Made by a program: the position numbers and the translations under genes. The notes under the pieces were generated by a model. It saw only the letters and a program-made list of their open reading frames with translations. It did not search any database and was not told the origin of the DNA. Shown one piece after another: positions 20,997 to 38,387 of a DNA stretch of 44,484 nt. Source of the DNA: a virus; the IMG/VR virus record IMGVR_UViG_3300006101_000022, positions 1 through 44,484 of that record. One strand, written 5' to 3'. The first letter of the stretch is position 1. Each line of letters begins with the position of its first letter.

Positions 20997-21302
20997 ATGG
21001 ACACTGACAATTTGATCGCACATGGCCGCACAAGATTTGAACATGCGGCTGCACGCAGGACTCTCAAAGAAAAATATCAAGGTCGTATGACTTTTGCCTA
21101 TCAGGGCGGCATGTGGCGTGCTGGTCCTGAGTTACAAAACACATTGTTGACCTGTCCCGACACAGAAGCAGTGTTGCTGGATTTGTATGAAACACCGGTC
21201 AAGGTCCAAACCCGAGAGCTGATGACATTGAGTCAACAACGCTGGCAAGAACAAATGACGGCTTGGTTGATCGAACACGAACAGCTGAATCAAAATCGAT
21301 GA
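20997..21302 (+). CDS. Conserved phage protein of unknown function, 101 aa
   Basis: A 101-aa, mostly helical, charged protein. Visible features are RTRFEHAAARRTLKEKYQGR near the N-terminus, then TFAYQGGMWRAGPEL and a C-terminal helix with LSQQRWQEQMTAWL. I recall similar small proteins in T4-like marine phages but know of no function. I chose the ATG at 20997 because the only upstream alternative in frame (a TTG at 20958) lies within and before the promoter. No Shine-Dalgarno sequence precedes this ATG, consistent with a leaderless start. The stop overlaps the next gene's start by 4 nt. As first gene of the operon it is placed for strong early expression. Confidence 0.75.
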   Translation: MDTDNLIAHGRTRFEHAAARRTLKEKYQGRMTFAYQGGMWRAGPELQNTLLTCPDTEAVLLDLYETPVKVQTRELMTLSQQRWQEQMTAWLIEHEQLNQNR

Positions 21303-22102
21303 CCCAGGGTGTTGTGATATTTGCCTACAATTCAGATCAGCTGGACTATATGGCCTTGGCCGCATGGAGCGCCAACAACATACACCGACACCTGGCTGTG
21401 CCGGTCACAGTCATAACTGATTGCGATCATGTTCCTGAGTCTTACCAATTTGATCAGGTCATACAGGCCACCAGATCGGGCACTGCCACCAGGTACTTTG
21501 CCGATCTTGATCGTACAGTACCCTGGTACAACGGCAACAGGATGTCGGCCTACGAGCTGTCGCCCTACGATACTACCTTGGTCCTGGACGCCGATTATGT
21601 GGTGACCAGCGATCAGTTGGCCTGCCTGTTCGACAGTCGCCAGGACTTTGTAGCACACGATCTGGCCTACGACGTGACCGGACGAGACAATTTTGATGAA
21701 CTCAACTGTTTTGGACGCTATCACAATCCCATGACCTGGGCCACAGTCATGTGTTTTCGGCGCAGCGATCATGTCGGATTGATATTTGAAACCATGGGCA
21801 TGATTCGAGACAACTGGGATCATTATCGTGCTGTGTACGGCATTGTTGATTCAAACTATCGCAATGATTTTGCCTTGAGCATGGCCTTGGGTGTGGTCAA
21901 TGGTCACGTGCAGACCAACACCAGTATCCCCTGGAAGCTGGCCACAGTGACACACCAGCATCAATTGAGCCAGCTGTCGCAAGATCGGTACCGAGTGGAC
22001 TGGAAGACCTCGGACAACCATGCCCGCTGGATCACGCTTGCGACTGATTTCCATGCCATGGGCAAACGATACCTAGGAGACATAGTTGCCAATCCTTGCT
22101 GA
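21299..22102 (+). CDS. GT-A-like putative glycosyltransferase (DAD motif)
   Basis: A 267-aa protein beginning at the ATG of an ATGA overlap. The N-terminus (GVVIFAYNSDQLDYMALAAW, then PVTVIT) has the look of a nucleotide-sugar binding Rossmann-like half. A hydrophobic strand leads to LVLDADYVV (about residues 94-102); DAD at 97-99 is a DxD-type metal/nucleotide-sugar motif. Later come NPMTWATVMCFRRSD and a His-rich C-terminal section (VTHQHQLSQL). This fits GT-A fold transferases and matches proteins found in T4-like marine phages, usually unannotated. The specific family and sugar cannot be assigned. The next gene has a similar layout, so the two may be distant paralogues. Confidence 0.6.
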   Translation: MTQGVVIFAYNSDQLDYMALAAWSANNIHRHLAVPVTVITDCDHVPESYQFDQVIQATRSGTATRYFADLDRTVPWYNGNRMSAYELSPYDTTLVLDADYVVTSDQLACLFDSRQDFVAHDLAYDVTGRDNFDELNCFGRYHNPMTWATVMCFRRSDHVGLIFETMGMIRDNWDHYRAVYGIVDSNYRNDFALSMALGVVNGHVQTNTSIPWKLATVTHQHQLSQLSQDRYRVDWKTSDNHARWITLATDFHAMGKRYLGDIVANPC

Positions 22103-22859
22103 ACGCGGCTATCTTATACCGGCCATCAACACTGAATCTGTGGACTATGTGGCCTGTGCCCAGCAATTGGCACGATCTATTAGACAATGGCATCCGTCGG
22201 CCAACATTTCGGTCATCACAGTAAATCGATGCAGTGATCCGGTATTTGATCATGTGATTCCATTGCCGCATGGCGATCTTGAAGGATACGTCAACGATTG
22301 GCAATGCTTTGACGCCAGCCCTTATCGACAGACCATCAAGCTGGAAGCCGACATGTGGTGTGCAGGTCCAATTGATCATTGGTGGAATCTTTTTGAGTTA
22401 CGAGATGTGGTGATCAGCCGTGGATGTAGAAATTTGTATGATCAGCCGGCGCAGTCCAGATCTTACAGAAAGATATTTGATCAGAATCATTTGCCAGATG
22501 TGTACAATGCTGTGACCTACTGGCGTGTGAGTAGACCAGCCCGACAATTTTTTGCCACGGTGCGTGACATATTTGAAAACTGGGCCAGTTACCGACGTGT
22601 TTTGAAATTTGCCGACGAGGCTCCTACCACCGACGTGGTCTATGCCATGGCTGCTGTGATACTGGGTCCCGAGTCGGTCATGTTGCCCGCAGGTCTGGGT
22701 CCCAGCATAGTGCATATGAAACAGCACATGATCGGACTGCTTGGTGACGATTGGACCCAAGAACTGGTAGCCGAGCAGACCATGCCCGGATTGCGCATCA
22801 ACACCGTGGCCCAATGGGGACTGGTACATTATCATGTCAAAGAGGCATTCCGTGACTGA
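22086..22859 (+). CDS. GT-A-like putative glycosyltransferase (EAD motif)
   Basis: A 257-aa protein with N-terminal GYLIPAINTESVDYVACAQ, a strand ISVITV, then TIKLEADMWCAGPIDHWW (about residues 83-100). The EAD at 87-89 sits where GT-A enzymes carry DxD, so the first Asp appears replaced by Glu. Later segments include DVYNAVTYWRVSRPARQFF and a C-terminal GLVHYHVKEAF. The start is a TTG at 22086 directly after an in-frame TAG, so it is the furthest upstream start possible; it overlaps the previous gene by 17 nt. A role in glycan transfer is inferred from fold pattern and context only. It shares organisation with the preceding gene, but the substitution may mean altered metal dependence or a non-catalytic role. 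Confidence 0.55.
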   Translation: MPILAERGYLIPAINTESVDYVACAQQLARSIRQWHPSANISVITVNRCSDPVFDHVIPLPHGDLEGYVNDWQCFDASPYRQTIKLEADMWCAGPIDHWWNLFELRDVVISRGCRNLYDQPAQSRSYRKIFDQNHLPDVYNAVTYWRVSRPARQFFATVRDIFENWASYRRVLKFADEAPTTDVVYAMAAVILGPESVMLPAGLGPSIVHMKQHMIGLLGDDWTQELVAEQTMPGLRINTVAQWGLVHYHVKEAFRD

Positions 22860-23187
22860 ACTGACTGAACAAGACTTCTGGCGCAGCCTACAACGATTGC
22901 GAGATCACGAACCGCCGGTGCCGGTATATAGATTGTACTATGATGATGCAGGAGTTCCGCTTTTCTACAGCCAGGAACATCTGCCCGGTAATTATATAGA
23001 ACTTGACGTTGATGTATGGCACGCAGGATCTTTCAATCTACGCATACAGGATGGAATTATACAGTATTTGCAGCGACCAGCACCACCAAGATTACAACCC
23101 GAAGATTCAGGAACAGCCTGCGATCCTAGAGATATATGTGTGGTGGTCACCCAAGACCGACCACACAAGAAATGGAGTTTGAGATGA
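22852..23187 (+). CDS. Conserved phage protein of unknown function, 111 aa
   Basis: A compact 111-aa protein with the pattern PVPVYRLYYDDAGVPLFYS, then HLPGNYIELDVDVWHAG and RIQDGIIQYLQ, and a C-terminal TACDPRDICVVV. I recall this pattern in T4-like marine phages beside glycosyltransferase-like genes, without an assigned function. I prefer the GTG at 22852 because AAAGAGG (22839-22845) sits 6 nt upstream; the ATG at 22834 would add six residues but has no ribosome-binding site. The start overlaps the previous stop by 8 nt and the stop overlaps the next ATG by 4 nt. The small beta-rich fold and position suggest an accessory partner of the flanking glycosyltransferase-like proteins. Confidence 0.65.
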   Translation: MTELTEQDFWRSLQRLRDHEPPVPVYRLYYDDAGVPLFYSQEHLPGNYIELDVDVWHAGSFNLRIQDGIIQYLQRPAPPRLQPEDSGTACDPRDICVVVTQDRPHKKWSLR

Positions 23188-24113
23188 AACGTATTGACAT
23201 AGCTGATCTTGATTGTATTTTTCTCACCTACGACGAACCCGACCGCGAAGAAAACTGGGCACGCATACGCAACCAGATTCCGTGGGCTCGTCGAGTAGAC
23301 GGAGTCAAAGGATCGGACGCTGCACACAAGGCCGCAGCAGAGGCCAGCAACACCGAACGATTTGTCTTGATCGATGGCGACAACATGCCGGATGAAAGTT
23401 TTTTCAATCTTACTCTGGAGTTGCCCACTGCCGAGTGGGAATCGGCAGTGTTTCGTTGGCGTGCTAGAAATCACGTAAATGGTCTCATGTACGGCAACGG
23501 CGGACTCAGTTCGTGGACACGAACTTTTGCAAACACCATGCAGACTCACGAAGCCACAGATGGCCGTACCGAAACCCAAGTGGAGTTTTGTTTTGATCCA
23601 CAATACTGGGCCATGCACGATTGCTACAGCACTACCTATCCCAACGGATCGGCATTCCATGCCTGGCGTGCCGGATTTAGAGAAGGCGTCAAAATGTGCC
23701 TGGATCAAGGGCGTAGACCCAGCATAGCCGAATTCCAGGATCGTGTGCATCACAGAAATCTGGACCATTTGACTGTATGGCACAACGTGGGTCGCGATGT
23801 GGAACACGGTATCTGGGCCATGGCCGGTGCCAGGATGGGCACCTACATGACCATGATCACGCCCGCCTGGGATTATCGAACTGTGCAGGATTTTGATGCT
23901 TTGGAAAAATTATGGCACACAGTGAAAGATTCGGACCCCGAGATCCTGGCCGGACGTGTGGCCGAAGACTTGGTCACCCAGCTGGATTTACCGATCAACA
24001 TGATGGGACCAGGCGAAAGTGCATTCTTCAAACAACACTATCTCAGCAATTGGCACAATCGCGGAGTCATGGTCAGAGAGATTGATATAATACGACAACA
24101 GGAAGGCTGGTAG
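23184..24113 (+). CDS. GT-A-like glycosyltransferase, DGD-motif phage family
   Basis: A 309-aa protein. The N-terminus has IFLTYDEPDREENWARI (about residues 12-28) and RVDGVKGSDAAHKAAAEAS, then FVLIDGDNMPDESFF, with DGD at 64-66 as the likely metal/nucleotide motif. Further on are NGLMYGNGGLSSWTR and FHAWRAGFREGVKM. The same blocks recur, degenerated, in the last 230 residues of the 800-aa protein at 40656 (DNGEPNAEENW, GVNGRVAAYHAAAR, MAWRTAFREALK), so these are paralogues within one genome. Family members are widespread in marine T4-like phages and are usually called glycosyltransferase-like. Substrate unknown. ATG start in an ATGA overlap. GC content is high here, dropping sharply in the next gene. 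Confidence 0.65.
   Translation: MKRIDIADLDCIFLTYDEPDREENWARIRNQIPWARRVDGVKGSDAAHKAAAEASNTERFVLIDGDNMPDESFFNLTLELPTAEWESAVFRWRARNHVNGLMYGNGGLSSWTRTFANTMQTHEATDGRTETQVEFCFDPQYWAMHDCYSTTYPNGSAFHAWRAGFREGVKMCLDQGRRPSIAEFQDRVHHRNLDHLTVWHNVGRDVEHGIWAMAGARMGTYMTMITPAWDYRTVQDFDALEKLWHTVKDSDPEILAGRVAEDLVTQLDLPINMMGPGESAFFKQHYLSNWHNRGVMVREIDIIRQQEGW
24083..24091 (+). promoter_or_regulatory. Candidate internal extended -10 promoter
   Basis: TGATATAAT matches the extended -10 form (TG-N-TATAAT). It lies inside the last codons of the upstream gene, 24 bp before the GTG at 24116, with no convincing -35. It precedes the only junction of the 19-gene run that does not overlap, and the change to AT-rich sequence. 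AGGAAGG at 24100-24106 then gives a strong ribosome-binding site 9 nt before the GTG. Confidence 0.4.
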
Positions 24114-24115
24114 CC

Positions 24116-24637
24116 GTGATTAAAAAATTAAAACTAAATTACGATTTCGCTGAAATATTGTCGGCTGATTACAGCCAGCATACTGGTAGTTGTATCAAGC
24201 ATCAAATATACGAAGTGAACGATATACATGAACAGTATGGGGGTTTTCCGCAATCTTATTGTCTAGAAAACACCATGATTCACCAACTATGGTGGAATTC
24301 AACTCAATTGGACTTTGATCAAATTGGTTGCCAACTGGGGATGGAAGTTATTACTATCAGCAGCATACAACAGCCGCCGGGATGTATGATTCCCATACAT
24401 CGAGATACCTTTTTTCAAATCAACCAACGCTATCCTGATCGTTCGGAATTAAAAGTACGGGCCAACATACACCTCGAAGATTGGAAACTGGGGCATTTTA
24501 TACAATACAACGATGTAGTACATACGCACTGGAACGCTGGTGACGTGTTACTATGGGATAACCAGGTCCTGCATCTTTCGGCCAATGCTGGTATGCATCA
24601 CAAATACACCTTGCAGGTTTCGGGATTTTTGATTTGA
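24116..24637 (+). CDS. 2OG-Fe(II) oxygenase / Asp-Asn beta-hydroxylase-like protein
   Basis: A 173-aa protein with a double-stranded beta-helix oxygenase pattern: IPIHRDTFFQ gives the HxD pair (H95, D97), VRANIHLEDWKLGHF is the strand block, WNAGDVLLWDNQVLH supplies the distal His (H153), and KYTLQVSG at the C-terminus carries the basic residue (K163) expected to hold 2-oxoglutarate. Length and motif order match the small hydroxylase-like proteins of marine myophages. It would oxidise or hydroxylate a protein side chain, lipid or sugar; the substrate is not evident. GTG start with a strong AGGAAGG site. Base composition drops to about 32-40% GC in lines sampled, against about 60% just upstream, a sign of separate acquisition. 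Confidence 0.75.
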   Translation: MIKKLKLNYDFAEILSADYSQHTGSCIKHQIYEVNDIHEQYGGFPQSYCLENTMIHQLWWNSTQLDFDQIGCQLGMEVITISSIQQPPGCMIPIHRDTFFQINQRYPDRSELKVRANIHLEDWKLGHFIQYNDVVHTHWNAGDVLLWDNQVLHLSANAGMHHKYTLQVSGFLI

Positions 24638-25587
24638 CAAAATTTGACATCATTCCGGCCAGCAATTACATTTGGAATCAGCTAGAACTAATTGATTTCC
24701 TGGTCCAGAATCAACAACGCGATATAGTATTGACAACCAATTCAGAAGGCTGTTGTTGCCGTGCGATTGGGTTATATGATCTATTAGATAAGTTTCGGTT
24801 TCAATCGGTCACAATAGTTACTAGCAATCCGGTTGAACAGCATGATCATTATCAAATCAAATTGACAAGACAATGGAATTTTTTATCTGTATCGACTGCA
24901 ATAGAAGATCGGTATCATTGTTGGAACAAGCACAGAATTTTTGGAACCATATATGGTCGACCTCTCTGGCACAGGATTGGCATCGCATCGCATTTGTTAG
25001 TGCATCATCGCCAGTTGAGTCTAATAGGCTGTCGTGCCAATACTGGCGAGGCCGACGACAGAGAATTATTTGAGGTGTCTCAGTTGTTCCAGCATGATCC
25101 TGACAGTTTGCAAAAATTTTCCAGTAACTGGCAACAGTTTCCTATGTTGCTCGAAAATCTAGACAGATATACGCCCGGACAACAAAATACCGACGGTTAT
25201 ATATCACAGACCAAGCGTGTTTATGCAGATTTTTTGATCGACATTGTGGCAGAAACCTTCACCGACGGTGATTGTTTTTTTGTAACAGAGAAGACTGTGA
25301 GACCCATGATGTTAAAAAAACCATTTATTATATTTGGATCCAAAAACTATTTGTTATATCTGCGTCGCATGGGATTCAGGACATTTGCAGATTTCTGGAA
25401 CGAAGACTACGACGGCTACGAGGGTCGAGAGCGATTCGTTAGAATATTGTATCTGATTGACAGCTTGGCACAAAAATCCAAGGACGAACTTGAACGCATG
25501 TACTGGGACATGCAGTATTCTCTTGATCATAACTACAATTTGCTGTATAATCAAACTTATACCAACAGTATCAATCCTATACCATGA
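24634..25587 (+). CDS. TEKT-family glycosyltransferase-like protein (copy 1)
   Basis: A 317-aa member of a family that recurs six times here. The C-terminal signature is FFVTEKTVRPMMLKKPFIIF (about residues 215-234), followed by YLRRMGFRTFADFWNEDYD (about 242-260). The TEK...P...G arrangement resembles the donor-binding half of GT10-type GT-B fucosyltransferases, so a GT-B transferase is my best reading, not a demonstrated one. The N-terminal half lacks recognisable motifs apart from an unusual CCC run at 40-42. The start is a TTG overlapping the previous stop (TTGA). Like the oxygenase upstream it is AT-rich, and the two may have moved as a pair. The stop overlaps the next ATG by 4 nt. Confidence 0.6.
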   Translation: MTKFDIIPASNYIWNQLELIDFLVQNQQRDIVLTTNSEGCCCRAIGLYDLLDKFRFQSVTIVTSNPVEQHDHYQIKLTRQWNFLSVSTAIEDRYHCWNKHRIFGTIYGRPLWHRIGIASHLLVHHRQLSLIGCRANTGEADDRELFEVSQLFQHDPDSLQKFSSNWQQFPMLLENLDRYTPGQQNTDGYISQTKRVYADFLIDIVAETFTDGDCFFVTEKTVRPMMLKKPFIIFGSKNYLLYLRRMGFRTFADFWNEDYDGYEGRERFVRILYLIDSLAQKSKDELERMYWDMQYSLDHNYNLLYNQTYTNSINPIP

Positions 25588-26999
25588 CCAACAAAGGTGA
25601 CGAAGTCACAGCCGAGTTCAAAAGCGGATTCCTAGACAGTGCTGAACACATGCACAAAGCTCTGGGTACGGGTTTGTGCTTGGCCAAATGGAAACAGGTC
25701 AGCTTGCACTTGCCCACCGGCCTAAACAATAGCTGTTATCATCCGCCCTTGCATGCTATAGATTCTACATTATTGGCAGGCAATCCTGCAACCTTGCACA
25801 ATACACCATACAAAAAAGCTCAGCGCAAGATCATGCTCAAACAAGAACGTCCTGCAGAATGCAGCTATTGTTGGAGCATGGAAGATGCTGGCAAATTAAG
25901 TGACCGTCACTATAGATCCGGTGAATCCTGGGCTGCCATGGATTTTGAAAAGATAATGCATTCAACCGGAGATGAAGATGACATTGTTCCTAGTTATGTT
26001 GAAGTTAATTTTAATCATGCCTGCAATCTTTCTTGTAGTTATTGTAGCCCACAATTTAGCAGCACCTGGGCGCAAGAGGTGGAACGTTGGGGAGGGTATC
26101 CTACATCAACGATTCACAATGATTCTAGTCATTTTGTTGGCCGTAATCGCCCTATACCTGCAAGAGAAGCCAATCCATACGTCGACGCCTTCTGGTCTTG
26201 GTGGCCAAACCTGTATCCTGAGCTGAAACATTTCCGTATGACCGGCGGCGAGCCCATGCTGGATCGCAATACCTATCGGGTGTTTGATTATGTGTTGGCC
26301 AATCCCAAACCAGATCTGCATCTCAATGTGACATCCAACTTCAGTGTAGACGAACGGTCATGGCAACGCTACAAGACTGCTGTCAAACAGATCTGCGCTG
26401 GCGAAAACGTCGAACACTTCATGCAATATGTGAGTCTAGACTCGTGGGGGCCACAGGCCGAATATATCAGACACGGACTGGACTTCAATCTGTTATGGGA
26501 TCGGGTAAACCAGTTCTTGACCGAGATACCAGGTCGTAACAGTATCACGTTCATCGTGACCATGAACAACTTGTCAGTCACTGGACTGGGCAGTCTCATG
26601 GCCGGCATCCTGGGTCTTAGGAAACTGTACAGCACCACCTATCAGCGTGTGTGGTTTGACACTCCGGTCTTGCGAGAACCTGCCTGGCAAAGCCTGCAGA
26701 TTCTGCCCGAAAGCTATTGTGATCAACTGGAACGTTTATGGGTCTGGATGAGCAAGCAGGCCGAAACCGAATCCACACGCTTCCAAGGATTCAAGGATTA
26801 TGAACTGGCCCGTCTGGATCGAGACATAGCCTGGATGCGTGATGGACAGAAGCTGGATCCGGCCTACATCAATCAACAGAAGGCCGACTTTTATAGGTTT
26901 TTTACGGAAGCTGATCGCAGACATGGCACAGATTTTTTGACAACCTTTCCTGAAATGGCCAGCTGGTGGAACGAGTGCGGGTATCATGCCAAAACATAA
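25584..26999 (+). CDS. N-twitch-type radical SAM protein (copy 1)
   Basis: A 471-aa radical SAM protein. ACNLSCSYC gives the CxxxCxxC motif for the SAM-binding 4Fe-4S cluster (C147, C151, C154), and MTGGEPMLD (about 219-227) is the GGEP strand that contacts SAM. N-terminal to the core, LCLAKW (C32), SCYHPP (C51) and ECSYCW (C93, C96) form a four-Cys set placed like the auxiliary cluster of N-terminal-twitch radical SAM proteins. QAEYIRHGLDF and a C-terminal FPEMASWW also fit that group. This copy and the one at 29188 share KW instead of PW and NPYVDAF, forming one subtype. The reaction is unknown. ATGA overlap at its start; the next gene starts 14 nt before its stop. Confidence 0.88.
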   Translation: MTNKGDEVTAEFKSGFLDSAEHMHKALGTGLCLAKWKQVSLHLPTGLNNSCYHPPLHAIDSTLLAGNPATLHNTPYKKAQRKIMLKQERPAECSYCWSMEDAGKLSDRHYRSGESWAAMDFEKIMHSTGDEDDIVPSYVEVNFNHACNLSCSYCSPQFSSTWAQEVERWGGYPTSTIHNDSSHFVGRNRPIPAREANPYVDAFWSWWPNLYPELKHFRMTGGEPMLDRNTYRVFDYVLANPKPDLHLNVTSNFSVDERSWQRYKTAVKQICAGENVEHFMQYVSLDSWGPQAEYIRHGLDFNLLWDRVNQFLTEIPGRNSITFIVTMNNLSVTGLGSLMAGILGLRKLYSTTYQRVWFDTPVLREPAWQSLQILPESYCDQLERLWVWMSKQAETESTRFQGFKDYELARLDRDIAWMRDGQKLDPAYINQQKADFYRFFTEADRRHGTDFLTTFPEMASWWNECGYHAKT

Positions 27000-28041
27000 G
27001 ATAGGCATACTGGATTTTGACCCTTTGGTCAATCTATTGCCAGGCGCCCGCAAATGTTTTTTAGATATCACTGCATTGAGCCACAATGAACTGTTGGATA
27101 CTCTTTCGTCTCTGGACACAGCATTCGACAGCATGATCCTGTCCACAGTGGATCATTGGCACAACTATGAACAAGAACAGGAAATCTTTGATCACCCGGT
27201 ACTGAAAGACAAACTGGTATTCTTGCAAACACAGACTTATCAAAATCAGTATTTGGGGCACAACTGTTGGCGACTCAGTTATCCCAGTTGGTATCTAAAC
27301 CGTCATAGCCAATATCGGCAATCTCCTGGCTTGCGCGAATTCCGTATCAAGCCCAAACAGTTACCACGCGGATTTGGGTGCCTGAACAATCGTCCGGCTC
27401 TGCATCGTTTATTGTTGGGAACGGCGCTGAACAATCGCGGATTGCTGGATCAGATGATATTCACGCAAAACAACACGCAAGCGATGTGTCACACCAATCC
27501 GGTATATCCAGCTGGTTGCATAGATCCACAGTGCAATGAAGATCCTGGTATACTAGATTCTGTTCTGGGTTGGTACGAATACTTGCGACTGTTGCCGATC
27601 AAATGGCAAAATCAAGCGATACAAAATCAGCATTGCGTGTATCACGACGCCGAGATCAACACTTACTGTAATATCTTGACCGAAGCCACAACTGGACGCA
27701 TACCATACAATCTTGATATCAATCTTCCTGAAATAAGCGAAAAAAGTCACAAGCCGTTTGTGAGTGGACAAATTCCTTTGTATCTGGCTGCTCGGGGACA
27801 CACTGCCTATCTACAAGGACTAGGATTTGAAGTCATGTCAGATCTTACACCTGCAGGGTTCGACGATCTTGGTACATTGGATCGAATCCAGGCCATCGTG
27901 GATGTGGTTGCTCGGGGTCGAGACTGGATTGAAAATTTTTATTATGATCACATCAAAGAGATACAACACAACCACGAGCTGGTATTTGCGCACAAGACCG
28001 ATCAAATTATATTGCAACGCATACAGGAAGTGGTAGCATGA
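26986..28041 (+). CDS. TEKT-family glycosyltransferase-like protein (copy 2, divergent)
   Basis: A 351-aa protein whose C-terminal block is a diverged version of the family signature: EISEKSHKPFVSGQIPLYL (about residues 249-267), then AYLQGLGFEVMSDL. The first T of TEKT is Ser and the second is Ser as well, and the FG/IG step is altered. The mid-region GCLNNRPALHRLLLG (about 131-145) followed by RGLLDQMIF matches the family block (N.R...HR..L...L..RGLL) seen in copies 3, 5 and 6. It starts at an ATG 14 nt inside the preceding radical SAM gene and ends in an ATGA overlap with copy 3. It may be a donor-specificity variant or a partner subunit of copy 3, its immediate neighbour. Confidence 0.5.
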   Translation: MPKHKIGILDFDPLVNLLPGARKCFLDITALSHNELLDTLSSLDTAFDSMILSTVDHWHNYEQEQEIFDHPVLKDKLVFLQTQTYQNQYLGHNCWRLSYPSWYLNRHSQYRQSPGLREFRIKPKQLPRGFGCLNNRPALHRLLLGTALNNRGLLDQMIFTQNNTQAMCHTNPVYPAGCIDPQCNEDPGILDSVLGWYEYLRLLPIKWQNQAIQNQHCVYHDAEINTYCNILTEATTGRIPYNLDINLPEISEKSHKPFVSGQIPLYLAARGHTAYLQGLGFEVMSDLTPAGFDDLGTLDRIQAIVDVVARGRDWIENFYYDHIKEIQHNHELVFAHKTDQIILQRIQEVVA

Positions 28042-29195
28042 TCGGCCATCGCAAGCTGATATTGGACACATTCAGTGAAGTATCGGACCTGTTAAAACCC
28101 TGGGCAGATGCTGAATTTTGGGATTTTGCCACTCATGACATTGTGCCCGGCGCGGTGTATCTGATCAGTCGAGAACAGTTCAATCTCAACGTGCCTCGCA
28201 TACGAGAACTGGCCGAGTCGAGCACGATCATACCCATCTTGAGCAATCCCATGGAAGGGTCAGACACCATGAGATGCCATGTTGAAATGGTCACACACAT
28301 GGATGATCTGGCTCGTGCTGGCAAACTGTTGTTGATTTCGGGCGGAGAAATGGATGCAACCTGGCCATACTTGTTGTATGATAACTTCTTGCCCAAGATC
28401 TTGGACTATGAAGAAAATCTGGTCCAGATAGATCGTGGACGAGAAATTTTTACCAAAATTGACAAACCTTACCAATTCCTATTTCTCAACGGACGCATAC
28501 GGCACCACAGAAAGTATCTGTTGGAACTGTTCCGTCATCGTGGACTATTGGATTCGGCCCTGTGGACCAATTTGGATCCAAGACCGGCCACGTTCCACCC
28601 ATTGGTATTGCCTGATGCTGTCAACATCAACTGTTGGGACCATACTGTATTTCCGTTGCAACAGTTGCCACCGCAATACGAAGTGGATCGATATCGTGAT
28701 CGAGTAGACACTGTGTCTCCAGACACTGTGCGAGATCTTTATGCCAAATATCACCTGTTCAACGATGAATGGGGAGATATCTATCTCAATGCCGATCCCT
28801 ACATCGACACCTATTTCAGTGTGGTGACCGAAACAGTTTTTGAGTATCCTTACAGTTTCCGTACAGAAAAAACCTGGAAGCCAATGGCCATGGGCCACCC
28901 TTGCGTGTTTGTGAGCAATGCTGGCTACTACAGAGATCTACACAATCTGGGATTTCAAACCTGGGGACACCTGATCGACGAAAGTTTTGACACCATACAC
29001 AATGTGCAAGATCGAATCGATCGCGTGGCGCAGGTGGTCGAGGATCTGTGTCAGCAGAATCTAGCCAGTTTCTTGAGTACTGCTCAAGATGTATGTAAAT
29101 ACAATCAACAGCACCTGGCTCACATGCGCACTCAAGTGCGTGCTGAATTTCCTGAACGCTTTTTCCAATTCTTAAAAAAATACATCAATGAATGA
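28038..29195 (+). CDS. TEKT-family glycosyltransferase-like protein (copy 3)
   Basis: A 385-aa protein with a well-kept family core: FLFLNGRIRHHRKYLLELF (about 147-165) followed by RGLLDSALW, then YFSVVTETVFEY (about 259-270), RTEKTWKPMAMGHP (275-288) and LHNLGFQTWGHLIDESFD (301-318). The acidic ET pair a few residues before TEK resembles the GT10 arrangement in which a Glu-containing segment precedes YVTEK. A GT-B transferase role is inferred. The N-terminal 120 residues (with PILSNPMEGSD) would be the acceptor-side domain. It lies between copy 2 and a radical SAM gene, overlapping both by 4-8 nt. Confidence 0.6.
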   Translation: MIGHRKLILDTFSEVSDLLKPWADAEFWDFATHDIVPGAVYLISREQFNLNVPRIRELAESSTIIPILSNPMEGSDTMRCHVEMVTHMDDLARAGKLLLISGGEMDATWPYLLYDNFLPKILDYEENLVQIDRGREIFTKIDKPYQFLFLNGRIRHHRKYLLELFRHRGLLDSALWTNLDPRPATFHPLVLPDAVNINCWDHTVFPLQQLPPQYEVDRYRDRVDTVSPDTVRDLYAKYHLFNDEWGDIYLNADPYIDTYFSVVTETVFEYPYSFRTEKTWKPMAMGHPCVFVSNAGYYRDLHNLGFQTWGHLIDESFDTIHNVQDRIDRVAQVVEDLCQQNLASFLSTAQDVCKYNQQHLAHMRTQVRAEFPERFFQFLKKYINE

Positions 29196-31768: not shown

Positions 31769-32970
31769 TAACGCCACATGATCAATTCTGTGTACTACCC
31801 TGGGTCAGTTTGGAGACCAGCCCAATTGGTACAGTGAGACCCTGTTGCTTGGCCGAACACGAGTTGGTCGACAATGCCGGAGAAAAATTCAATCTGGCAC
31901 AGGCCAAATTTACTGCAATACAGGACAGTGACAGCATGCGCAAATTGAGACAGCAGTTTCTGGCCGGTGAACGACCTGACACATGCGGCAAGTGCTGGAG
32001 AGAAGAGGATGCTGGTCGTACCAGCAAAAGAATGCACACCTTGGACAGACTCAAGCACATGATTCCTGATCAGGAATGGACCGAGGATGCTAGACCTCTC
32101 ATGTTTCTGGACCTCAAGTTGGGCAGTATATGTAATCTCAAATGCAGGATCTGTGGGTCATGGAGCTCGAGCACATTCGCCACTGAAGAGCTACAGGCCT
32201 TGCCGGTGGACCAACGACGTGGCAGTTTCCATCATAAAATGTTGCGAGCCGGTGCCTGGCCCAGAGAAAATGAATCGTTCTGGGCTGAACTGGATCAGGT
32301 GTCGGATCAGATACGTTATATTGAATTTACCGGCGGTGAGCCATTCATGATTCAAGAACATTTTGATCTGTTGCATGATTTGATTGCGCAGGGCATCGCT
32401 GGTCAAATTGAGATACATTACAATACCAATGGTACTCAATGGCCCGAGCAAGGCGAAGAGATCTGGCGCTATTTCAAAAAAGTTGAGATAGCATTCAGCA
32501 TAGACGATGTGGGTGCGCGATTTGAATATCAACGATCAAATGCTGTGTGGATCGAAGTCTGTGCCAACATACAAAAATTCCAGGACATGCGTGATCGGTG
32601 TTGTAACATCGAACTTCAGGTGTGTACCACAGTGAATGTGTTCAATGTGTATTATCTGGAAGAAGTGGCCAACTGGATCATGTTGCAAGGATTTGATTTT
32701 GTGTATTGGAACATGATGCATGATGCTCCATATTTCAGCATCAGCACCTTGCCCGATTTGGCCAAACAGGCAATCTCGGCACAGTTGAGATCGGCGCAGG
32801 TGGACGCTCGCACACGACAAGAATTTGACAATATTGTGGATTTTATGTGTCGTGGAAGCAGTCTAGATGGTTCCCTATTGCGCATGAAAATTGCCGAGCT
32901 TGATCGTAGACGCAATCAGCATTTGAAAAATGTACAACCAGAATTGGCCAGGCTGATCGGCTATGAATAA
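31765..32970 (+). CDS. N-twitch-type radical SAM protein (copy 4)
   Basis: A 401-aa protein with FCVLPWVSLETSPIGTVRP then CC (C9, C27, C28), SMRKLRQQFLAGERPDTCGK and C77 (C74, C77), and SICNLKCRIC as the CxxxCxxC motif (C123, C127, C130). FTGGEPFMI lies at about 188-196. The segment equivalent to AEYIR is FEYQRSNAVW, a divergence that could change substrate binding. The tail AELDRRRNQHLKNVQPELA is typical of the group. It lacks any leader, so the N-terminal Cys is almost at the start. It follows copy 3 in an ATGA overlap, making the rSAM-rSAM-rSAM block 29188-32970 the densest part of the cassette. Confidence 0.88.
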   Translation: MITPHDQFCVLPWVSLETSPIGTVRPCCLAEHELVDNAGEKFNLAQAKFTAIQDSDSMRKLRQQFLAGERPDTCGKCWREEDAGRTSKRMHTLDRLKHMIPDQEWTEDARPLMFLDLKLGSICNLKCRICGSWSSSTFATEELQALPVDQRRGSFHHKMLRAGAWPRENESFWAELDQVSDQIRYIEFTGGEPFMIQEHFDLLHDLIAQGIAGQIEIHYNTNGTQWPEQGEEIWRYFKKVEIAFSIDDVGARFEYQRSNAVWIEVCANIQKFQDMRDRCCNIELQVCTTVNVFNVYYLEEVANWIMLQGFDFVYWNMMHDAPYFSISTLPDLAKQAISAQLRSAQVDARTRQEFDNIVDFMCRGSSLDGSLLRMKIAELDRRRNQHLKNVQPELARLIGYE

Positions 32971-33913
32971 ACCAACCATGATTGTACCACCGTCTGCTGG
33001 ATCTTATGTGCTGTATGATTTCTTGAAATCTCAGTTCGACGTGGTGCAATATGATCCCGACACACAATACGACAAACTGAACTGTTTGGCTCTGGTGGGA
33101 TTCCGCAACGACCATGACTGGTGGAAACAGTTGTATCAAGACGGGATCAGACTGGTGATTGACAATTTGCACGAACCATACGATCATTACAAAACATTTT
33201 TTCCGCCACTGGTGGATAATTTCTATCAACTGAACAATATCAATTGGTTCTGGTATGACGAAGCGTTGTCTGACCGACAGCATTATGGTTACGTTCCGGC
33301 CAAGACTTATAAAAAATTGGCCTTGATGCCCATGAATCAACGCAAACAACACCGTACACGCTTGCACGATGCCATGAAACCGTACCTGGCAGACTGCATA
33401 TACAGTTATGTAGAGTTGGGCATCCGCTTGCCCAATGATTGTGTGGATGATGCTTGTTGGGATCGTTATACAGATCCAGACTGGTACAATGACACCTATT
33501 TCAGTTTGGTAGCCGAGGCCAATACCGATAGTGTTCCTTATAGATATCCTGTGCAACCATGGCCTTTCATGACCGAAAAAACCATGAAGCCGTTGTCATA
33601 TCGTCATCCTTACATGATCTATGGCCAATCTGGTACCTTGGCACATCTGCGTGCGATCGGATTTGAATCTTTTGAAAATCTGTTCAACGAAAGCTACGAT
33701 CAAATTGGCAATCCAAAATCCAATCAGCCAGATCCAAAACTGTATTGCATAATGGACAATGTAAAAAACTTTGAGCGACGACCCTACGATGCATTGACTC
33801 TGGGCAAAATCGAGCACAACTATCATCACTTCTTTGATCGTCAATTGATCAGGCAACGAGTTGATGTCGAAATCGTACAACCATTATTGGACTATGTCAA
33901 TGGCAAAACCTGA
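32963..33913 (+). CDS. TEKT-family glycosyltransferase-like protein (copy 4)
   Basis: A 316-aa protein with the family core MTEKTMKPLSYRHPYMIYG (203-221) and LAHLRAIGFESFENLFNESY (226-245). TYFSLVAEANTD before it parallels the SVVTET stretch of copy 3. The mid-region MPMNQRKQHRTRLHDAM corresponds to the N.R...HR block, here without the GLL. Its ATG lies inside the last codons of radical SAM copy 4 (ATGAATAA), and the next radical SAM gene starts before its stop, so it is sandwiched between two radical SAM genes. A GT-B-like transferase is inferred from the motif; donor and acceptor are unknown. Confidence 0.6.
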   Translation: MNKPTMIVPPSAGSYVLYDFLKSQFDVVQYDPDTQYDKLNCLALVGFRNDHDWWKQLYQDGIRLVIDNLHEPYDHYKTFFPPLVDNFYQLNNINWFWYDEALSDRQHYGYVPAKTYKKLALMPMNQRKQHRTRLHDAMKPYLADCIYSYVELGIRLPNDCVDDACWDRYTDPDWYNDTYFSLVAEANTDSVPYRYPVQPWPFMTEKTMKPLSYRHPYMIYGQSGTLAHLRAIGFESFENLFNESYDQIGNPKSNQPDPKLYCIMDNVKNFERRPYDALTLGKIEHNYHHFFDRQLIRQRVDVEIVQPLLDYVNGKT

Positions 33914-35192
33914 CACCCTGTGCATGGCACCTTGGACCCACACCTATCTCAGCCCACAGACCGAGCGAAGAATGTGCTGTGCCAGCCGAGAACCGGCGCA
34001 GAGTTTTGAACAGTACATAGACACTGCGACCGGCACCGGCATCTACACTCCGGTCACTCTGGACCAACACTGGAACAGCGATCACATGCGATCGGTGCGC
34101 AGACGCATGATGGCAGGCGAGACCTTGCCCGAGTGCGAGGTATGCAACGACCGCTTGCTCAATACCGATGTTTACCGTAGCTATTTCAATCATCTGTTTG
34201 GACATAAGTATTTGGAAGCCATGCAGATGACTGACGCTGACGGCCATACACACATGCAACCGGTCAGCTGGGATTATCGTTTTACCAATTTGTGCAATTT
34301 CAAATGCCGCATGTGCGGTGACATGTTGTCAAGTGCTTGGGAAAGCGAGCAACGCGAACATGCCATGATAGACTGGACCAATTCCAAGAACGCTTGGATG
34401 CGTCCTGAAACCAAGGAGAAGATTACTGCGTTTCAAGACAGCGTGATTGAAGCTGAATTTAGTCAAGCTGTCGAGCAACACCGTGTTGAGGAAATATATT
34501 GGGTGGGTGGAGAACCACTCATGTATGAACAACACTGGCGCTACATGCAACGCATAATCGAATTAGGTGACGGTCCCAGAGTCTATGCCAGATACAATAC
34601 CAATCTCAGCCGATGTCATTATCGCGGCATTGATCTTTTTGACGATATTCTTGCTCATGTTCGAGATTATCAGATCTGTGCAAGCCTGGACGGCACGGCG
34701 AAAACAGGCGAGTATATTAGAACAGGCCTCCGATACGATTCATGGCTTGCAAATTTCGCTCGAGCAGTTGACCTCAGACGTCACAGCCGCCAGGTCCGAC
34801 TTGATTTTACACTCACCTTGCCCGGACTGTTTGAAGTTGAAAACATTGTGCGACTTGCACGCGAACACGACACCGAAATACTAGCCAAAGTGGTTTTCAG
34901 CTTTGGACCCGACATCATACTGAGTCCGCTGGCTCTGCCCAGGGCCCTGTTGGATCGAAAATTGTCAGAACTGATACCGGTCACAGACGGAGCCATGCGA
35001 GCTGTGCTGGAACAGTTGCAGAATCGTCCCACGTTTGAACAACAATGGCCAGATACCTGGCAGGAATCTCTTGCAAAAGGCAAGCGGCGTGTGCTACAAT
35101 TAGAACGTATACGTGGCGACAGCTACAACTTGGCAGATATCTTGGGCCAGGATCCTGACATAAGAAAATGGTATGACTCAATCCCCACTTGA
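33900..35192 (+). CDS. N-twitch-type radical SAM protein (copy 5)
   Basis: With the start at the ATG at 33900 the product has 430 aa; ATG 33894, two codons upstream, is equally possible. TLCMAPWTH (C8), RMCC (C26, C27) and PECEVC (C79, C82) give the auxiliary set. FTNLCNFKCRMC is the CxxxCxxC motif (C132, C136, C139) and WVGGEPLMY follows (about 201-209). TGEYIRTGLRYDSW is the conserved segment after the barrel middle, and the C-terminus ends DPDIRKWYDS. It differs from the others by extra residues between the N-terminal Cys pairs (SFEQYIDTATGTG region). The reaction is unknown. It overlaps its upstream neighbour by 14 nt and its downstream neighbour by 20 nt. Confidence 0.87.
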   Translation: MAKPDTLCMAPWTHTYLSPQTERRMCCASREPAQSFEQYIDTATGTGIYTPVTLDQHWNSDHMRSVRRRMMAGETLPECEVCNDRLLNTDVYRSYFNHLFGHKYLEAMQMTDADGHTHMQPVSWDYRFTNLCNFKCRMCGDMLSSAWESEQREHAMIDWTNSKNAWMRPETKEKITAFQDSVIEAEFSQAVEQHRVEEIYWVGGEPLMYEQHWRYMQRIIELGDGPRVYARYNTNLSRCHYRGIDLFDDILAHVRDYQICASLDGTAKTGEYIRTGLRYDSWLANFARAVDLRRHSRQVRLDFTLTLPGLFEVENIVRLAREHDTEILAKVVFSFGPDIILSPLALPRALLDRKLSELIPVTDGAMRAVLEQLQNRPTFEQQWPDTWQESLAKGKRRVLQLERIRGDSYNLADILGQDPDIRKWYDSIPT

Positions 35193-36225
35193 CTGTATAG
35201 AAATAGATCTGGGCCTGCCCGCCGCACAAGAAACAGTTACTCTGTACCTAGATGTGGCCGACAACAGCCTGAGTCGCAAATGGTTGCTAGCTCTTGATCA
35301 TTTGTTATTGAACAATTATCACCTGGAAAAAAATTACTGCTGGTTTGGATTTGCAGATTCGGCACGTAATGGTCAGTATCTGTGTGATCAGATCAATGCC
35401 AGTATTGCGGCTATAAATGCCAGTGGCATAGCATATTCGATACAGGATGTGTTTTATGTAACAGATCTAATAGATGGCAATTTTGAGTTAAATCATGATC
35501 GATTGAATCGCTTGCACAGATATTTTGAAGATCTGCAAGGGCAGAGCGGTCGTATCAGCGCATACTATTCAGCAGCTGATGCCAACACACGCTGGCATAT
35601 CAGACAGTTGAATGGTCTGTGTCATGAATTTGAAAGCTGGGCCTTGAGCTGGAGAAAAAAGCATACCGCCCCTGAGTGGCAAAGACCCAGCCAGCTGATG
35701 TGTTGGCTACAGGCACCCAGATTCAAACTGGAATCAGCAGATCTGGAACTGTTTGGTATAGACACCATCAATCGATCGCTGGGCGCAGTGTATGTGGGCG
35801 TGAACAAGGCCGTGGGCAAACATCATTGGGAAGTGTTCCAGGATGAAGGACGTGACAGCAGGATAGGCGAATTGACCACGACCACCTTGTCCAGTCAGAC
35901 CGAAGCTGCCGGAGACTTTGATATCGAATGGGCCAACAATCCTGGCGCCTATGAATGGCAAAAGAAACAGCTGGCTGAGTTTCGTGACTGGTTGATCAGC
36001 AACGGACTTGATCCTGAAGATCCTGCACTAACCATTGGTCACCCCCGGGTGGCACAGGTGGATCTGATTCGTAGTTTTGGCACACAAGATTACAGGAAGA
36101 TTTGGGCAGTATTAAATACGCATCTGAATGTGTCTGCCATACGCACCAGTACAACACAGGCCGAATATCCTTACCATTGGTGGGACATCAACTACAAGGA
36201 ACTGCAAATACAATGTCTTGGATAA
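35173..36225 (+). CDS. Conserved phage protein of unknown function, 350 aa
   Basis: A 350-aa soluble protein. Visible blocks are SRKWLLALDHLLLNNYHLEK (about residues 34-53) followed by NYCWFGFAD, NRLHRYFEDLQGQSG (about 111-125), VYVGVNKAVGKHHWEVFQDE (about 211-230) and a C-terminal IGHPRVAQVDLIRSFG. From memory, proteins with KWLLALK...NYHLEKNYCF and FEDLQG blocks occur in marine myophages, always as hypothetical proteins. There is no Cys cluster, DxD or TEKT motif, so it is not another copy of the neighbouring families. It starts 20 nt before the previous stop and overlaps the following 33-aa gene by 13 nt. A role in the same surface-chemistry pathway is inferred from operon position only. 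Confidence 0.7.
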   Translation: MTQSPLDCIEIDLGLPAAQETVTLYLDVADNSLSRKWLLALDHLLLNNYHLEKNYCWFGFADSARNGQYLCDQINASIAAINASGIAYSIQDVFYVTDLIDGNFELNHDRLNRLHRYFEDLQGQSGRISAYYSAADANTRWHIRQLNGLCHEFESWALSWRKKHTAPEWQRPSQLMCWLQAPRFKLESADLELFGIDTINRSLGAVYVGVNKAVGKHHWEVFQDEGRDSRIGELTTTTLSSQTEAAGDFDIEWANNPGAYEWQKKQLAEFRDWLISNGLDPEDPALTIGHPRVAQVDLIRSFGTQDYRKIWAVLNTHLNVSAIRTSTTQAEYPYHWWDINYKELQIQCLG

Positions 36226-36314
36226 AAAATATTTACAATCGCATACGACTGGAAATACGCTATCGTCGAAAGCTTCGGGAATTGCGCAAACGCGATCCAT
36301 TTATATACAAATGA
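36213..36314 (+). CDS. Tiny basic protein, 33 aa, ending KRDPFIYK
   Basis: A 33-codon gene from the ATG at 36213, overlapping the previous stop by 13 nt and the next ATG by 4 nt. The product is very basic and helical (IRLEIRYRRKLRELRKR) and ends in KRDPFIYK. I recall very similar miniature ORFs with the same C-terminal signature in T4-like marine phages, so I regard it as a real gene despite its size. The charge pattern suggests RNA, membrane-surface or protein binding; no function is known to me. Confidence 0.65.
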   Translation: MSWIKNIYNRIRLEIRYRRKLRELRKRDPFIYK

Positions 36315-36955
36315 AAAAACAATTATTAACAGTGGGCGATAGTTATACCTACGGTGACGAACTGACAGATCGATACCAGGCATGGCCTTACCGTTTGGCA
36401 GATAGGTTGACTTACGAAGTACAAAATAAGGGACAATCGGGTATCAGTAACACCAGCATACTGAGACGCACACTAGAGGAATTGGCAATCAACAGTTACG
36501 ATTTGGTCATTATCGGATGGACCAATCCGGGCAGAATAGAATGGAAAGACGCAATCGGAGTGGCCTACGACATATGGCCCGGAGTGGTTATACCAAATAA
36601 ATTTACAGAAGATCACCCCTGGCGTACAGATTTGATAACATATATCAATCAGCATCACAGTCCGGAATATCTTTACGAACAATATTTAATACAAGTAATA
36701 TCGTTACAGTCATATTTTCAAGCACATGATATAAAATATCGCATGATTGATATTGCATACAAAAACTACTATAGACAGGTAGGACAAGAACAACACGATC
36801 AACTGTCTCGGTTGATCGACACAGATTATTTTATAGGCTGGGATCAATTTGGCATGAACGAAATTGCCGGTAAATCACGGGCCTATGGCGGGCATCCAAC
36901 CGATGCAGGGCACCAACAAATAGCAAACAAAATTTATGAACATCTTGGGAATTAG
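36311..36955 (+). CDS. SGNH/GDSL-type hydrolase
   Basis: A 214-aa protein with SGNH-family blocks in order: LLTVGDSYTYGDE (nucleophile S11), KGQSGISN (oxyanion Gly, about 44), VIIGWTNPGR (block III Asn, N72) and GGHPTDAGH (D198, H201) at the C-terminus. The catalytic triad looks complete, so it is probably active. SGNH enzymes deacylate or deacetylate lipids and glycans; here removal or transfer of O-acetyl groups on a surface glycan is a reasonable guess. Upstream in-frame starts would overlap the preceding genes heavily; the ATG at 36311, in an ATGA overlap, is preferred. The gene is AT-rich (about 27% GC in one 60-bp line counted) between GC-rich neighbours, suggesting separate acquisition. 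No signal peptide is seen. Confidence 0.85.
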   Translation: MKKQLLTVGDSYTYGDELTDRYQAWPYRLADRLTYEVQNKGQSGISNTSILRRTLEELAINSYDLVIIGWTNPGRIEWKDAIGVAYDIWPGVVIPNKFTEDHPWRTDLITYINQHHSPEYLYEQYLIQVISLQSYFQAHDIKYRMIDIAYKNYYRQVGQEQHDQLSRLIDTDYFIGWDQFGMNEIAGKSRAYGGHPTDAGHQQIANKIYEHLGN

Positions 36956-38387
36956 TGCCGGATTCCATGATGCCACGGTATCAGTAATCGACGCACAAGG
37001 CAAGATCTTGTTTGCCGGACACAGCGAGCGTTATAGCAAACGCAAAAATGATCCTGACATACATGCTGACCTGATCCAGGACCTGGCCCGCGGCCGACAC
37101 ATTGACCACATAGCCTATTACGAACGACCGTGGCTCAAACAGATTCGACAGTTCTACAGCGGACAAGGCGTTGAGTGGTCAAAACTCACAGCGCGACAGA
37201 TCATGCGAAAACAACTACAGGGTCATTTTCCGGGCGTTCCTGTCAGCACACATGATCATCATCTCAGTCATGCAGCCGGTGGATTCCAGACCAGCCCATT
37301 TGATCGCGCCACTGTGGTCGTGATTGATGCGGTAGGTGAATGGGACACTGCGACCATATGGGCCGCTGACTACGATCGTGGTCGTGCTCGATATCGCAGA
37401 CTGTGGCGACAACGCTATCCGCGCAGTATAGGACTGTTTTACAGTGCCGTGACTGATCGATTGGGCCTGCACCCCATGGATGAAGAATACATCACCATGG
37501 GCATGGCCGCCTGGGGTCAACCCAGATACACAGCCGAGCTGACCAAGTTGACCGATCAAAATCTACATGCAGGTCTGGATCCAAATTTCCTAGAATCGGC
37601 CCGAGATGAGGATATTGCCGCCAGTGCGCAACAAGTTTGCGAAAATATGATATATACGATCATGCGTCAAGCTCAAGCGTTTGGGTGGAGTTCAAATTTG
37701 GTATATTCGGGCGGTGTTGCCCTCAACTGTTTGGCCAATAGGAGATTGGATGAGTACTTTGAAAAGATTTGGATCATGCCTTGTCCTGGCGATGGTGGTA
37801 GCAGTCTTGGTGCAGCAGCCTTGGCCCACCGAGGAAGAATCCAATTTGAACATGCATACCTGGGTCACATCATTGACGGCCAGTATCCTGTTGATGCCGT
37901 TGTCCACAGTCTACTGGTTGATAGACTCTGTGGTGTTGCATCTGGAGCGGCAGAATTTGGGCCGCGGGCACTGGGCAACCGAAGTCTCCTCGCGGATCCA
38001 CGAGGAACGGACATAAAAGATCTGGTCAATGCCATCAAGCGTAGACAACAATTCCGCCCGTTTGCTCCGATTATTTTGGCCGAACATGTTGATAGTTATT
38101 TTGACATGCCCCAAGGCTGGGTAGATACCGGTTACATGCAGGTCGTGGCACGATGCCTACGTCCTGATCTTTATCCTGCCATTGTCCACCGTGATGGAAC
38201 CAGTCGTGTTCAAACTGTGCCCCCGGGAAATTCGGGCATTAGACGACTGTTAGAAGCTTGGTATAAAGCAACCGATTGTCCTCTGCTACTCAACACTAGC
38301 CTTAATATACGAGGCGAACCCATGGTCAATGATCGAGCAGATGCTGATCGATTTGAACGCCTGTACAGGATAAAAGTTTACAGCTGA
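36936..38387 (+). CDS. NodU/CmcH-type carbamoyltransferase
   Basis: A 483-aa carbamoyltransferase. N-terminal domain: ILGISAGFHDATVSVID (about 3-19), HDHHLSHAAGGF (106-117), VVVIDAVGEWDTATIW and SGGVALNCLANRRL (258-271), the ATP/Fe-type fold shared with the Kae1/TsaD superfamily. C-terminal domain: AAEFGPRALGNRSLLADPR (338-356), RQQFRPFAPIIL, DGTSRVQTVPPGN and LLNTSLNIRGEPMV. Relatives transfer carbamoyl phosphate-derived carbamoyl groups to sugar or antibiotic hydroxyls (NodU, TobZ, CmcH). All main motifs are present, though it is shorter than TobZ-type enzymes (about 570 aa). It is last in the plus-strand run, starting 20 nt before the SGNH stop. Its 3' end overlaps the convergent gene by 62 nt. 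Confidence 0.93.
   Translation: MNILGISAGFHDATVSVIDAQGKILFAGHSERYSKRKNDPDIHADLIQDLARGRHIDHIAYYERPWLKQIRQFYSGQGVEWSKLTARQIMRKQLQGHFPGVPVSTHDHHLSHAAGGFQTSPFDRATVVVIDAVGEWDTATIWAADYDRGRARYRRLWRQRYPRSIGLFYSAVTDRLGLHPMDEEYITMGMAAWGQPRYTAELTKLTDQNLHAGLDPNFLESARDEDIAASAQQVCENMIYTIMRQAQAFGWSSNLVYSGGVALNCLANRRLDEYFEKIWIMPCPGDGGSSLGAAALAHRGRIQFEHAYLGHIIDGQYPVDAVVHSLLVDRLCGVASGAAEFGPRALGNRSLLADPRGTDIKDLVNAIKRRQQFRPFAPIILAEHVDSYFDMPQGWVDTGYMQVVARCLRPDLYPAIVHRDGTSRVQTVPPGNSGIRRLLEAWYKATDCPLLLNTSLNIRGEPMVNDRADADRFERLYRIKVYS

Follow-up and report, generated by a model that had tools for sequence, protein, structure and literature searches.

What use could a phage have for nineteen tightly coupled genes, placed next to its tail fibre genes, that seem to encode radical S-adenosylmethionine (SAM) enzymes, glycosyltransferases and sugar-tailoring proteins? 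The question is raised by the IMG/VR virus record IMGVR_UViG_3300006101_000022, a linear fragment of 44,484 bases that was analysed over its whole length and is referred to below as the window. Read from its left end, it comprises a baseplate block, the genes t1, t2 and t3, the cassette in question (20997-38387), a minus-strand gene pair, a repeat protein gene and, at the right end, DegT-type aminotransferase and epimerase genes. The cassette consists of u1, G1, G2, u4, G3, OG, Ka, R1, Kb, Kc, R2, R3, R4, Kd, R5, uX, s33, SG and CT, all on the plus strand. An earlier examination of the letters without database searches (hereafter, the sequence-only reading) had delimited the same block, and gene calls reproduced it, the nineteenth gene being an open reading frame (ORF) of 33 amino acids. 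Neighbouring genes overlap at 17 of the 18 junctions, and the sole exception is a 2-bp gap between G3 and OG, as had been described; the overlaps, however, measure 4-26 rather than 4-20 nucleotides, that of G2/u4 being 26 nucleotides with an ATG start. The answer that we tentatively favour is a cytosolic pathway which builds and edits a glycan and most likely decorates the Ser/Thr-rich fibre protein t3, and thereby the virion.

The arrangement recurs far beyond the window. A scan of IMG/VR with R3 returned at least 579 related stretches, and G3 has at least 576 relatives in viral contigs; the scans share contigs and return the best 80 loci each, and the counts derived from them are not independent samples. 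As far as the contigs extend, the best 80 R3 loci read t2-t3-u1-G1-G2-u4-G3-(slot)-R1-(Kc)-R2-R3-(slot)-R4-(slot)-R5-uX-(slot)-CT, followed by Ke and Kf on the minus strand and then by RG, DegT and the epimerase, and the same order emerged from scans seeded with five members (R3, G3, uX, u1 and t3). G3 is present in 74 and u4 in 61 of the 80 R3-selected loci. When loci were selected by uX, 50 had complete flanks; all of these contain R2, R4 and R5, while 49 contain R3 and 48 contain R1. Meanwhile, t3 lies upstream in 80/80 u1-selected loci, R1 follows in all 50 with sufficient downstream sequence, and 49 of 52 t3-selected loci have a radical SAM gene. Recurrent order in the R3-, uX-, u1- and t3-selected loci rules out a chance neighbourhood and upholds the notion of a coupled, phage-borne cassette of radical SAM, glycosyltransferase and sugar-tailoring genes. 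Inserted genes occur mostly at G3/R1 (87/163), R3/R4 (54/206), R4/R5 (83/191) and uX/CT (37/146), and 232 of the 239 slot ORFs are co-oriented with the cassette. A Pfam scan of 42 cluster representatives of the slot ORFs revealed a NodS-like methyltransferase, hexapeptide acyltransferases, an NDP (nucleoside diphosphate)-sugar epimerase/GDP-mannose dehydratase, an AMP-binding enzyme and extra radical SAM proteins. Taken together with the fixed order, this content suggests that a constant core is combined with sugar-tailoring steps that can be exchanged.

All five radical SAM proteins named in the sequence-only reading exceed the curated cut-off (170 bits) of the N-twitch radical SAM family NF033640: R1 (25584-26999) scores 291, R2 (29188-30525) 290, R3 (30506-31768) 380, R4 (31765-32970) 336 and R5 (33894-35192) 285 bits. 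The CxxxCxxC motif is intact in all of them and in practically all orthologues, the N-terminal cysteines are retained, and the SPASM/twitch domain of R3 is N-terminal. In a tree of 419 radical SAM proteins, one clade was obtained per cassette position, each covering 73-81 loci, with a support of 96-100 for R1-R4 (R1: 79 loci, support 100) and an unsupported branch holding R5. Hence, R1-R5 represent five old orthologous lineages rather than recent copies. The ratio of nonsynonymous to synonymous substitutions (dN/dS) of 0.05-0.13 for these genes indicates purifying selection and, since no broken gene copies are present in the window, decay of the cassette is ruled out. The two outcomes which had been named as fatal to the proposal, i.e. 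lack of co-occurrence in related phages and decay, are thus decisively contradicted by the conserved loci, the tree and the dN/dS values. NF033640-type matches number 7-21 per contig in all 12 long contigs, and the cut-off was passed by none of 14 control genomes. The 347-kb contig behind locus L017 (G001) contains 21 matches to the family, most of them over the cut-off and some far from the cassette. One in-frame TAG each was observed in the over-cut-off matches G001:318146-319294 and G009:180029-181252, which may reflect decay, sequencing error or stop-codon recoding.

As to the substrates of these enzymes, a PDB search with the R3 profile matched an anaerobic sulfatase-maturating enzyme (E 4e-4); a weak match (E 0.047) was to the twitch part of BtrN. 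BtrN performs radical C-H chemistry on an aminoglycoside precursor, and like other sugar-acting radical SAM enzymes it exemplifies twitch/SPASM-type chemistry on sugars. The similarity of R3 to its twitch part is weak, however, and unlike in BtrN, the twitch domain of R1-R5 is N-terminal and the proteins belong to the separate family NF033640.

The glycosyltransferase-like genes are of two kinds. TEKT-type proteins are encoded by four genes within the cassette, Ka (24634-25587), Kb (26986-28041), Kc (28038-29195) and Kd (32963-33913), and by two on the minus strand, Ke (38326-39555) and Kf (39548-40654), both of which are conserved in position. Alignment recovered all six copies claimed before, with Kb being degenerate (SEKS) and found in 3 loci only; the joint alignment is too diverged to seed a collection scan. 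None of them has a Pfam match, and Ka-Ke have no PHROG match either. The AlphaFold model of Kc (mean predicted local distance difference test, pLDDT, 92.8) was compared with the PDB by Foldseek, and nearly all matches are GT-B enzymes, albeit remote ones (best E 8.8e-4; template modelling scores 0.26-0.42). Judging by this model, the TEKT proteins, Ka included through its alignment with Kc, look like GT-B glycosyltransferases, in line with their previous interpretation as transferases. A more specific assignment to GT10 fucosyltransferases was not supported: there is no Pfam match, and the GT10 structure 2nzy appears only among the remote fold matches. Kc, located between R1 and R2, is the only near-constant TEKT member. 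The idea that radical SAM and TEKT genes act as obligate paired steps does not hold, since R1-R5 persist without TEKT genes in the loci L065, L067, L069 and L071.

G1 (21299-22102; LDADYVV motif), G2 (22086-22859) and G3 (23172-24113; IDGDN motif) are likely GT-A glycosyltransferases as far as sequence comparison goes. G1 and G2 are homologous (profile-profile probability 98.9%), and G2 gave weak PDB matches only (E 0.6-0.85), all to glycogenin; a profile search yielded no glycogenin-type PDB match for G1 or G3. DxD-like motifs were noted by eye, and dN/dS of the three genes is 0.12-0.14. RG (40656-43058, plus strand) combines repeats of a 198-nucleotide period with a G3-like C-terminal domain (BLASTP to G3, 5e-5); relatives matching RG are also encoded by actinobacterial contigs. 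The DegT-type aminotransferase (43015-44151) and the NDP-sugar epimerase (44042-44482), both on the minus strand, were assigned by sequence and conserved position rather than by a family search. RG, DegT and the epimerase had all been announced as followers of the cassette and were found there, the epimerase being truncated by the end of the window.

Further tailoring functions are encoded at the end of the cassette. CT (36936-38387) carries both domains of the Nol-like carbamoyltransferases (PF02543, 4e-37; PF16861, 1.5e-43) and matches phrog_1601 (2e-85); SG (36311-36955) is an SGNH/GDSL hydrolase (PF13472). These two assignments of the sequence-only reading were confirmed by Pfam and PHROG, whereas for its 2-oxoglutarate (2OG) oxygenase, the slot gene OG (24116-24637; 6 loci), there are only weak 2OG-Fe(II) oxygenase matches in Pfam, below the cut-off. 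It is the sugar-tailoring content of core and slots, along with the GT-B fold of Kc, that points to a glycan pathway. Phage DNA hypermodification pathways can also use glycosyltransferases and radical enzymes, and base hypermodification or the synthesis of a metabolite was considered for that reason. We regard this as very improbable, given the location after the baseplate and fibre genes, the lack of base-synthesis genes in the block, a slot content typical of glycans, and matches in the defence library that amount only to weak viperin-like similarity in the radical SAM core. Because this similarity is weak and limited to the core, viperin-type defence was rejected as well.

Four core proteins have no assigned activity. 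The uX protein (35173-36225) overlaps R5 in 170 of 174 loci and, like CT, has a dN/dS of 0.13. Its AlphaFold model (pLDDT 89) found no fold match in the PDB, and the only significant fold similarity was to phage proteins lacking annotation; an equivalence to gp166 of Agrobacterium phage Atu_ph07, hinted at by a viral fold match, was not confirmed by profile comparison. The 101-amino acid u1 (20997-21302) has 390 relatives among candidate stretches in viral contigs, with no match in the phage collection or the family libraries. The 117-amino acid u4 (22834-23187) evolves fast (dN/dS 0.40). Finally, s33 (36213-36314) is a strongly basic microprotein, MSWIKNIYNRIRLEIRYRRKLRELRKRDPFIYK, present in 160 loci and exactly 33 amino acids long in 136 of them. 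A codon-pattern scan for its C-terminal end KRDPFIYK, blind to context, identified an ORF ending there or within 3 amino acids in 80/80 loci (L251-L330); most of these have a carbamoyltransferase nearby and many are without the radical SAM cassette. The microprotein belongs to a phage peptide family linked to carbamoyltransferases, which seems to be undescribed. In the marine virus AG-345-D19 (L083), genes for an SGNH protein, a short peptide ending in SDPYIYEE, a carbamoyltransferase and an N-twitch radical SAM protein are consecutive.

Sequence data indicate that the carriers of the cassette are T4-type/RaK2-like jumbo phages, represented by hundreds of loci: a Gp23-type major capsid protein is encoded in 16 of 22 long related contigs, contigs with the cassette reach ~347 kb, and the baseplate wedge subunit of the window (1226-4654, plus strand) is closest to those of RaK2-like jumbo phages and Atu_ph07 (tblastn, 33-35% identity over 93-97%). 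Cyanophage origin was discarded, as photosystem genes were found in 0 of 9 long contigs. Few cassette genes have relatives among 50,697 phage records, and a tblastn search of INPHARED gave no match for Kc, u1, G1, G2, RG, t3 and s33. A first scan of bacterial genomes revealed no home of the cassette. The order t2-t3-u1-G1-G2-G3 also occurs, with fewer or different radical SAM genes, in G3-containing bins from marine metagenomes; these bins are best read as phage contigs and, because of this phage gene order, give no host assignment. Vibrio phage K566 (L082) has four N-twitch-like radical SAM genes with glycosyltransferase-like genes in between, and a PagP gene is close by.

The remaining question is what the glycan would be attached to. 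The plus-strand gene t3 (19972-20937) stands next to u1, and the S+T content of its fibre-like product, a candidate acceptor, is 32% in the window and has a median of 30% over 146 copies. None of the cassette proteins has a transmembrane segment (highest 19-residue hydropathy 1.62), and no flippase, polymerase, polyprenol-phosphate transferase or membrane transferase was detected in the cassette. Accordingly, t3 is proposed as the target because of its near-obligate neighbourhood, the exclusively soluble enzymes, the lack of a flippase and the parallel in Atu_ph07 discussed below. The sequence-only reading had left the choice between the phage's own fibres and the host envelope, and decoration of one or the other stays the leading interpretation. 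Remodelling of the envelope would mean that the enzymes alter the O-chain or the capsule of the infected host, so that other phages could not superinfect it or the progeny could not re-adsorb. The absence of membrane enzymes and of a flippase, polymerase or polyprenol-phosphate transferase from the block, which also sets it apart from the gtrABC-type module of O-antigen glucosylation, and the near-obligate presence of t2 and t3 argue against it, as does the position of the homologous Atu_ph07 locus at the edge of the virion-protein cluster, mapped by virion proteomics to CDS 170-215 (PMC6102473).

Among 181 unique sequences of the t3-u1 gap, 131 contain an intrinsic terminator and 154 a -10-like box (9 in shuffles), which in 149 cases is located 5-7 nucleotides 5' of the start codon; the consensus is CTTTACTTTT...tGTATAATa.....ATG. 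The gap of the window (20938-20996) reads TTGGCA-17-TATAAT-6-ATG, which places a predicted, apparently leaderless promoter at 20962-20990 of the plus strand, 6 nucleotides 5' of the u1 ATG; no terminator was detected in this particular gap. A -35 element is present in only 15 of the 181 gaps, so that the polymerase and the timing are inferred. The T4-late-type box TAYAAATA was found at 115 of 235 t1-t2 junctions as against 4 of 297 t3-u1 junctions; in the window it occurs upstream of t2 as TATAAATA (18678-18685, plus strand), of which about one exact match per window is expected by chance. The conserved terminator and the TATAAT box 5-7 nucleotides before u1 suggest that the cassette is a transcription unit of its own, apparently leaderless, yet beside t3.

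Several observations weigh against t3 as the target. Fibre proteins are often rich in Ser and Thr without carrying glycans. The terminator and the separate promoter split the cassette from t3, unlike the box at t2, and would make a host-directed early product nearly as plausible. The K566 relatives of the radical SAM and glycosyltransferase genes lie near the gene of PagP, a lipid A enzyme, which by analogy would favour the envelope. DegT, epimerase, carbamoyl-, methyl- and acyltransferase genes, all present in cassette loci, are typical of O-antigen loci, and s33, being short and strongly basic, could bind membranes. In addition, the authors of a study on pelagimyophages favour modification of the host O-chain for comparable clusters (PMC7029224). 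Action on the host envelope is hence a close rival, only somewhat less probable, and decoration of t3 is retained as the tentative working interpretation.

Support for action on the virion comes from cultured phages. In Atu_ph07, a JmjC/cupin oxygenase-like gene comes after the wedge, a giant structural gene and homologues of t1 and t2, together with three radical SAM genes annotated as such and a gene for a 296-amino acid protein ending in CHSSCHASCHNSRSRR. Sinorhizobium phage Phosso has the same gene set, and its tailed protein, ending in CHTSCHASCHSSRSRR, shares 38% identity overall with the Atu_ph07 counterpart. These proteins of 296-306 amino acids (L247:29119-30009, minus strand, and L249:12001-12921, plus strand; Atu_ph07 and Phosso) are likely virion proteins; their C-terminus, CHxSCHASCHxSRSRR, resembles that of ribosomally synthesised and post-translationally modified peptides (RiPPs), the C-terminal peptide of Atu_ph07 gp170/Phosso gene 289 being CHSSCHASCHNSR. 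The window displays the same succession of wedge, giant structural gene, t1, t2, and radical SAM and oxygenase-like genes. Its gp25-like gene (805-1179), the first of the upstream structural block, and its ORF for a giant 4411-amino acid virion structural protein (4651-17886) correspond by position to gp182 and gp180 (13.3 kb) of Atu_ph07, respectively; t1 (18008-18682), a fibre-region structural gene, and the tail fibre-like t2 (18718-19953; dN/dS 0.46) have profile matches to gp177 (227 bits) and gp176 (267 bits), all these genes being on the plus strand. By analogy, the Atu_ph07/Phosso locus gives the strongest hint of action on the virion, with the reservation that the radical SAM families differ.

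The same locus raises the possibility that R1-R5 edit side chains of a virion protein in a RiPP-like manner, the transferases then glycosylating or building on the modified sites. Peptides are common substrates of radical SAM enzymes that carry SPASM/twitch domains; the enzymes of Atu_ph07 and Phosso, encoded beside the Cys/His-tailed protein, resemble the peptide maturases DynA/PapB/DarE, and the match of R3 to the sulfatase-maturating enzyme fits as well. However, the enzymes of the two rhizobial phages are of the C-terminal SPASM type and, with 24 bits at best against NF033640 for those of Atu_ph07, fall outside the N-twitch family. Moreover, neither G1-G3 nor a carbamoyltransferase was seen in these phages, no Cys/His-repeat tail was found near any cassette, and, unlike in RiPP systems, no precursor with a recognition domain was detected in the cassette by Pfam and the tail search, a RiPP-like look being confined to Atu_ph07 and Phosso. 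Protein editing by R1-R5 therefore appears rather improbable.

Within the preferred pathway, decoration of t3, transcription would start at the conserved promoter before u1. G1, G2 and G3, with u1 and u4 helping, would synthesise a core glycan whose attachment sites are most likely Ser and Thr side chains of t3, and the TEKT enzymes, as predicted GT-B transferases, would add further sugars. The five N-twitch enzymes would then edit sugar carbons by C-H chemistry, e.g. dehydrogenation or epimerisation, and the slot genes (methyl-, acyl- and carbamoyltransferases, oxygenase, SGNH hydrolase, NDP-sugar enzymes) would provide lineage-specific decoration. The outcome would be a chemically complex and variable coat on the adhesion apparatus of the phage.

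The statement of the sequence-only reading that no such system had been described proved overstated, because marine phages are known to have host recognition clusters (HRCs) that combine radical SAM with glycosyltransferase genes. The pelagimyophage HRC contains radical SAM cassettes and glycosyltransferases of non-syntenic content (PMC7029224). Both it and the VrlC-side region of Pelagibacter phage Mosig EXVC030M resemble the locus studied here as variable regions by baseplate or fibre genes with glycosyltransferases, radical SAM protein, carbamoyltransferase, DegT-type aminotransferase, epimerase and oxygenase. The HRC of T4-like phages lies between VrlC and gp14; the cassette, from contigs of which most encode a T4-like Gp23, lies beside the giant baseplate-region gene. 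In contrast to the HRC, the order t3-u1-G1-G2-u4-G3-R1..R5-uX-s33-CT is fixed; in Mosig EXVC030M, the two radical SAM-like proteins are short and the gene set is different. A T4-like environmental genome, TARA_ERS488813_N000010, likewise has many radical SAM genes, twelve in all, which were interpreted via iron-sulfur metabolism (PMC5332604); the passage on it mentions neither a cassette nor a gene order nor a link to fibres. For mycobacteriophages, phage glycosyltransferases that act on virion proteins have reportedly been described (Freeman 2023, as cited within PMC12619734), and those proposed here would work likewise on their putative acceptor. The literature search yielded no pathway, whether directed at virions or at envelopes, in which five orthologous radical SAM enzymes are fixed. 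Novel features of the present locus are its fixed order, the set of five orthologous N-twitch enzymes, a fibre gene as constant partner, uX, the 33-amino acid peptide and the dedicated promoter. We know of no radical SAM step in the virion glycosylation of mycobacteriophages.

A broader, unlikely though attractive, view by analogy is that the fibre-downstream locus of RaK2-like jumbo phages is a general radical SAM workshop acting on the virion, which in rhizobial phages would leave RiPP-like marks on the Cys/His-tailed protein and, through five dedicated N-twitch enzymes, would remodel a fibre or its glycan in the cassette carriers, presumably freshwater phages, a label that we take from IMG project numbers and not from a checked record. 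If this were true, viruses would be major users of radical SAM post-translational chemistry on their own particles. In any case, the cassette is widespread in uncultured jumbo phages and constitutes an unexplored enzyme set for C-H chemistry, be it on glycans or on proteins, and uX represents a conserved protein fold without a solved relative. The cassette also gives a testable idea of how phages may diversify their adhesion apparatus, part of which can be addressed in the cultured phages Atu_ph07 and Phosso.

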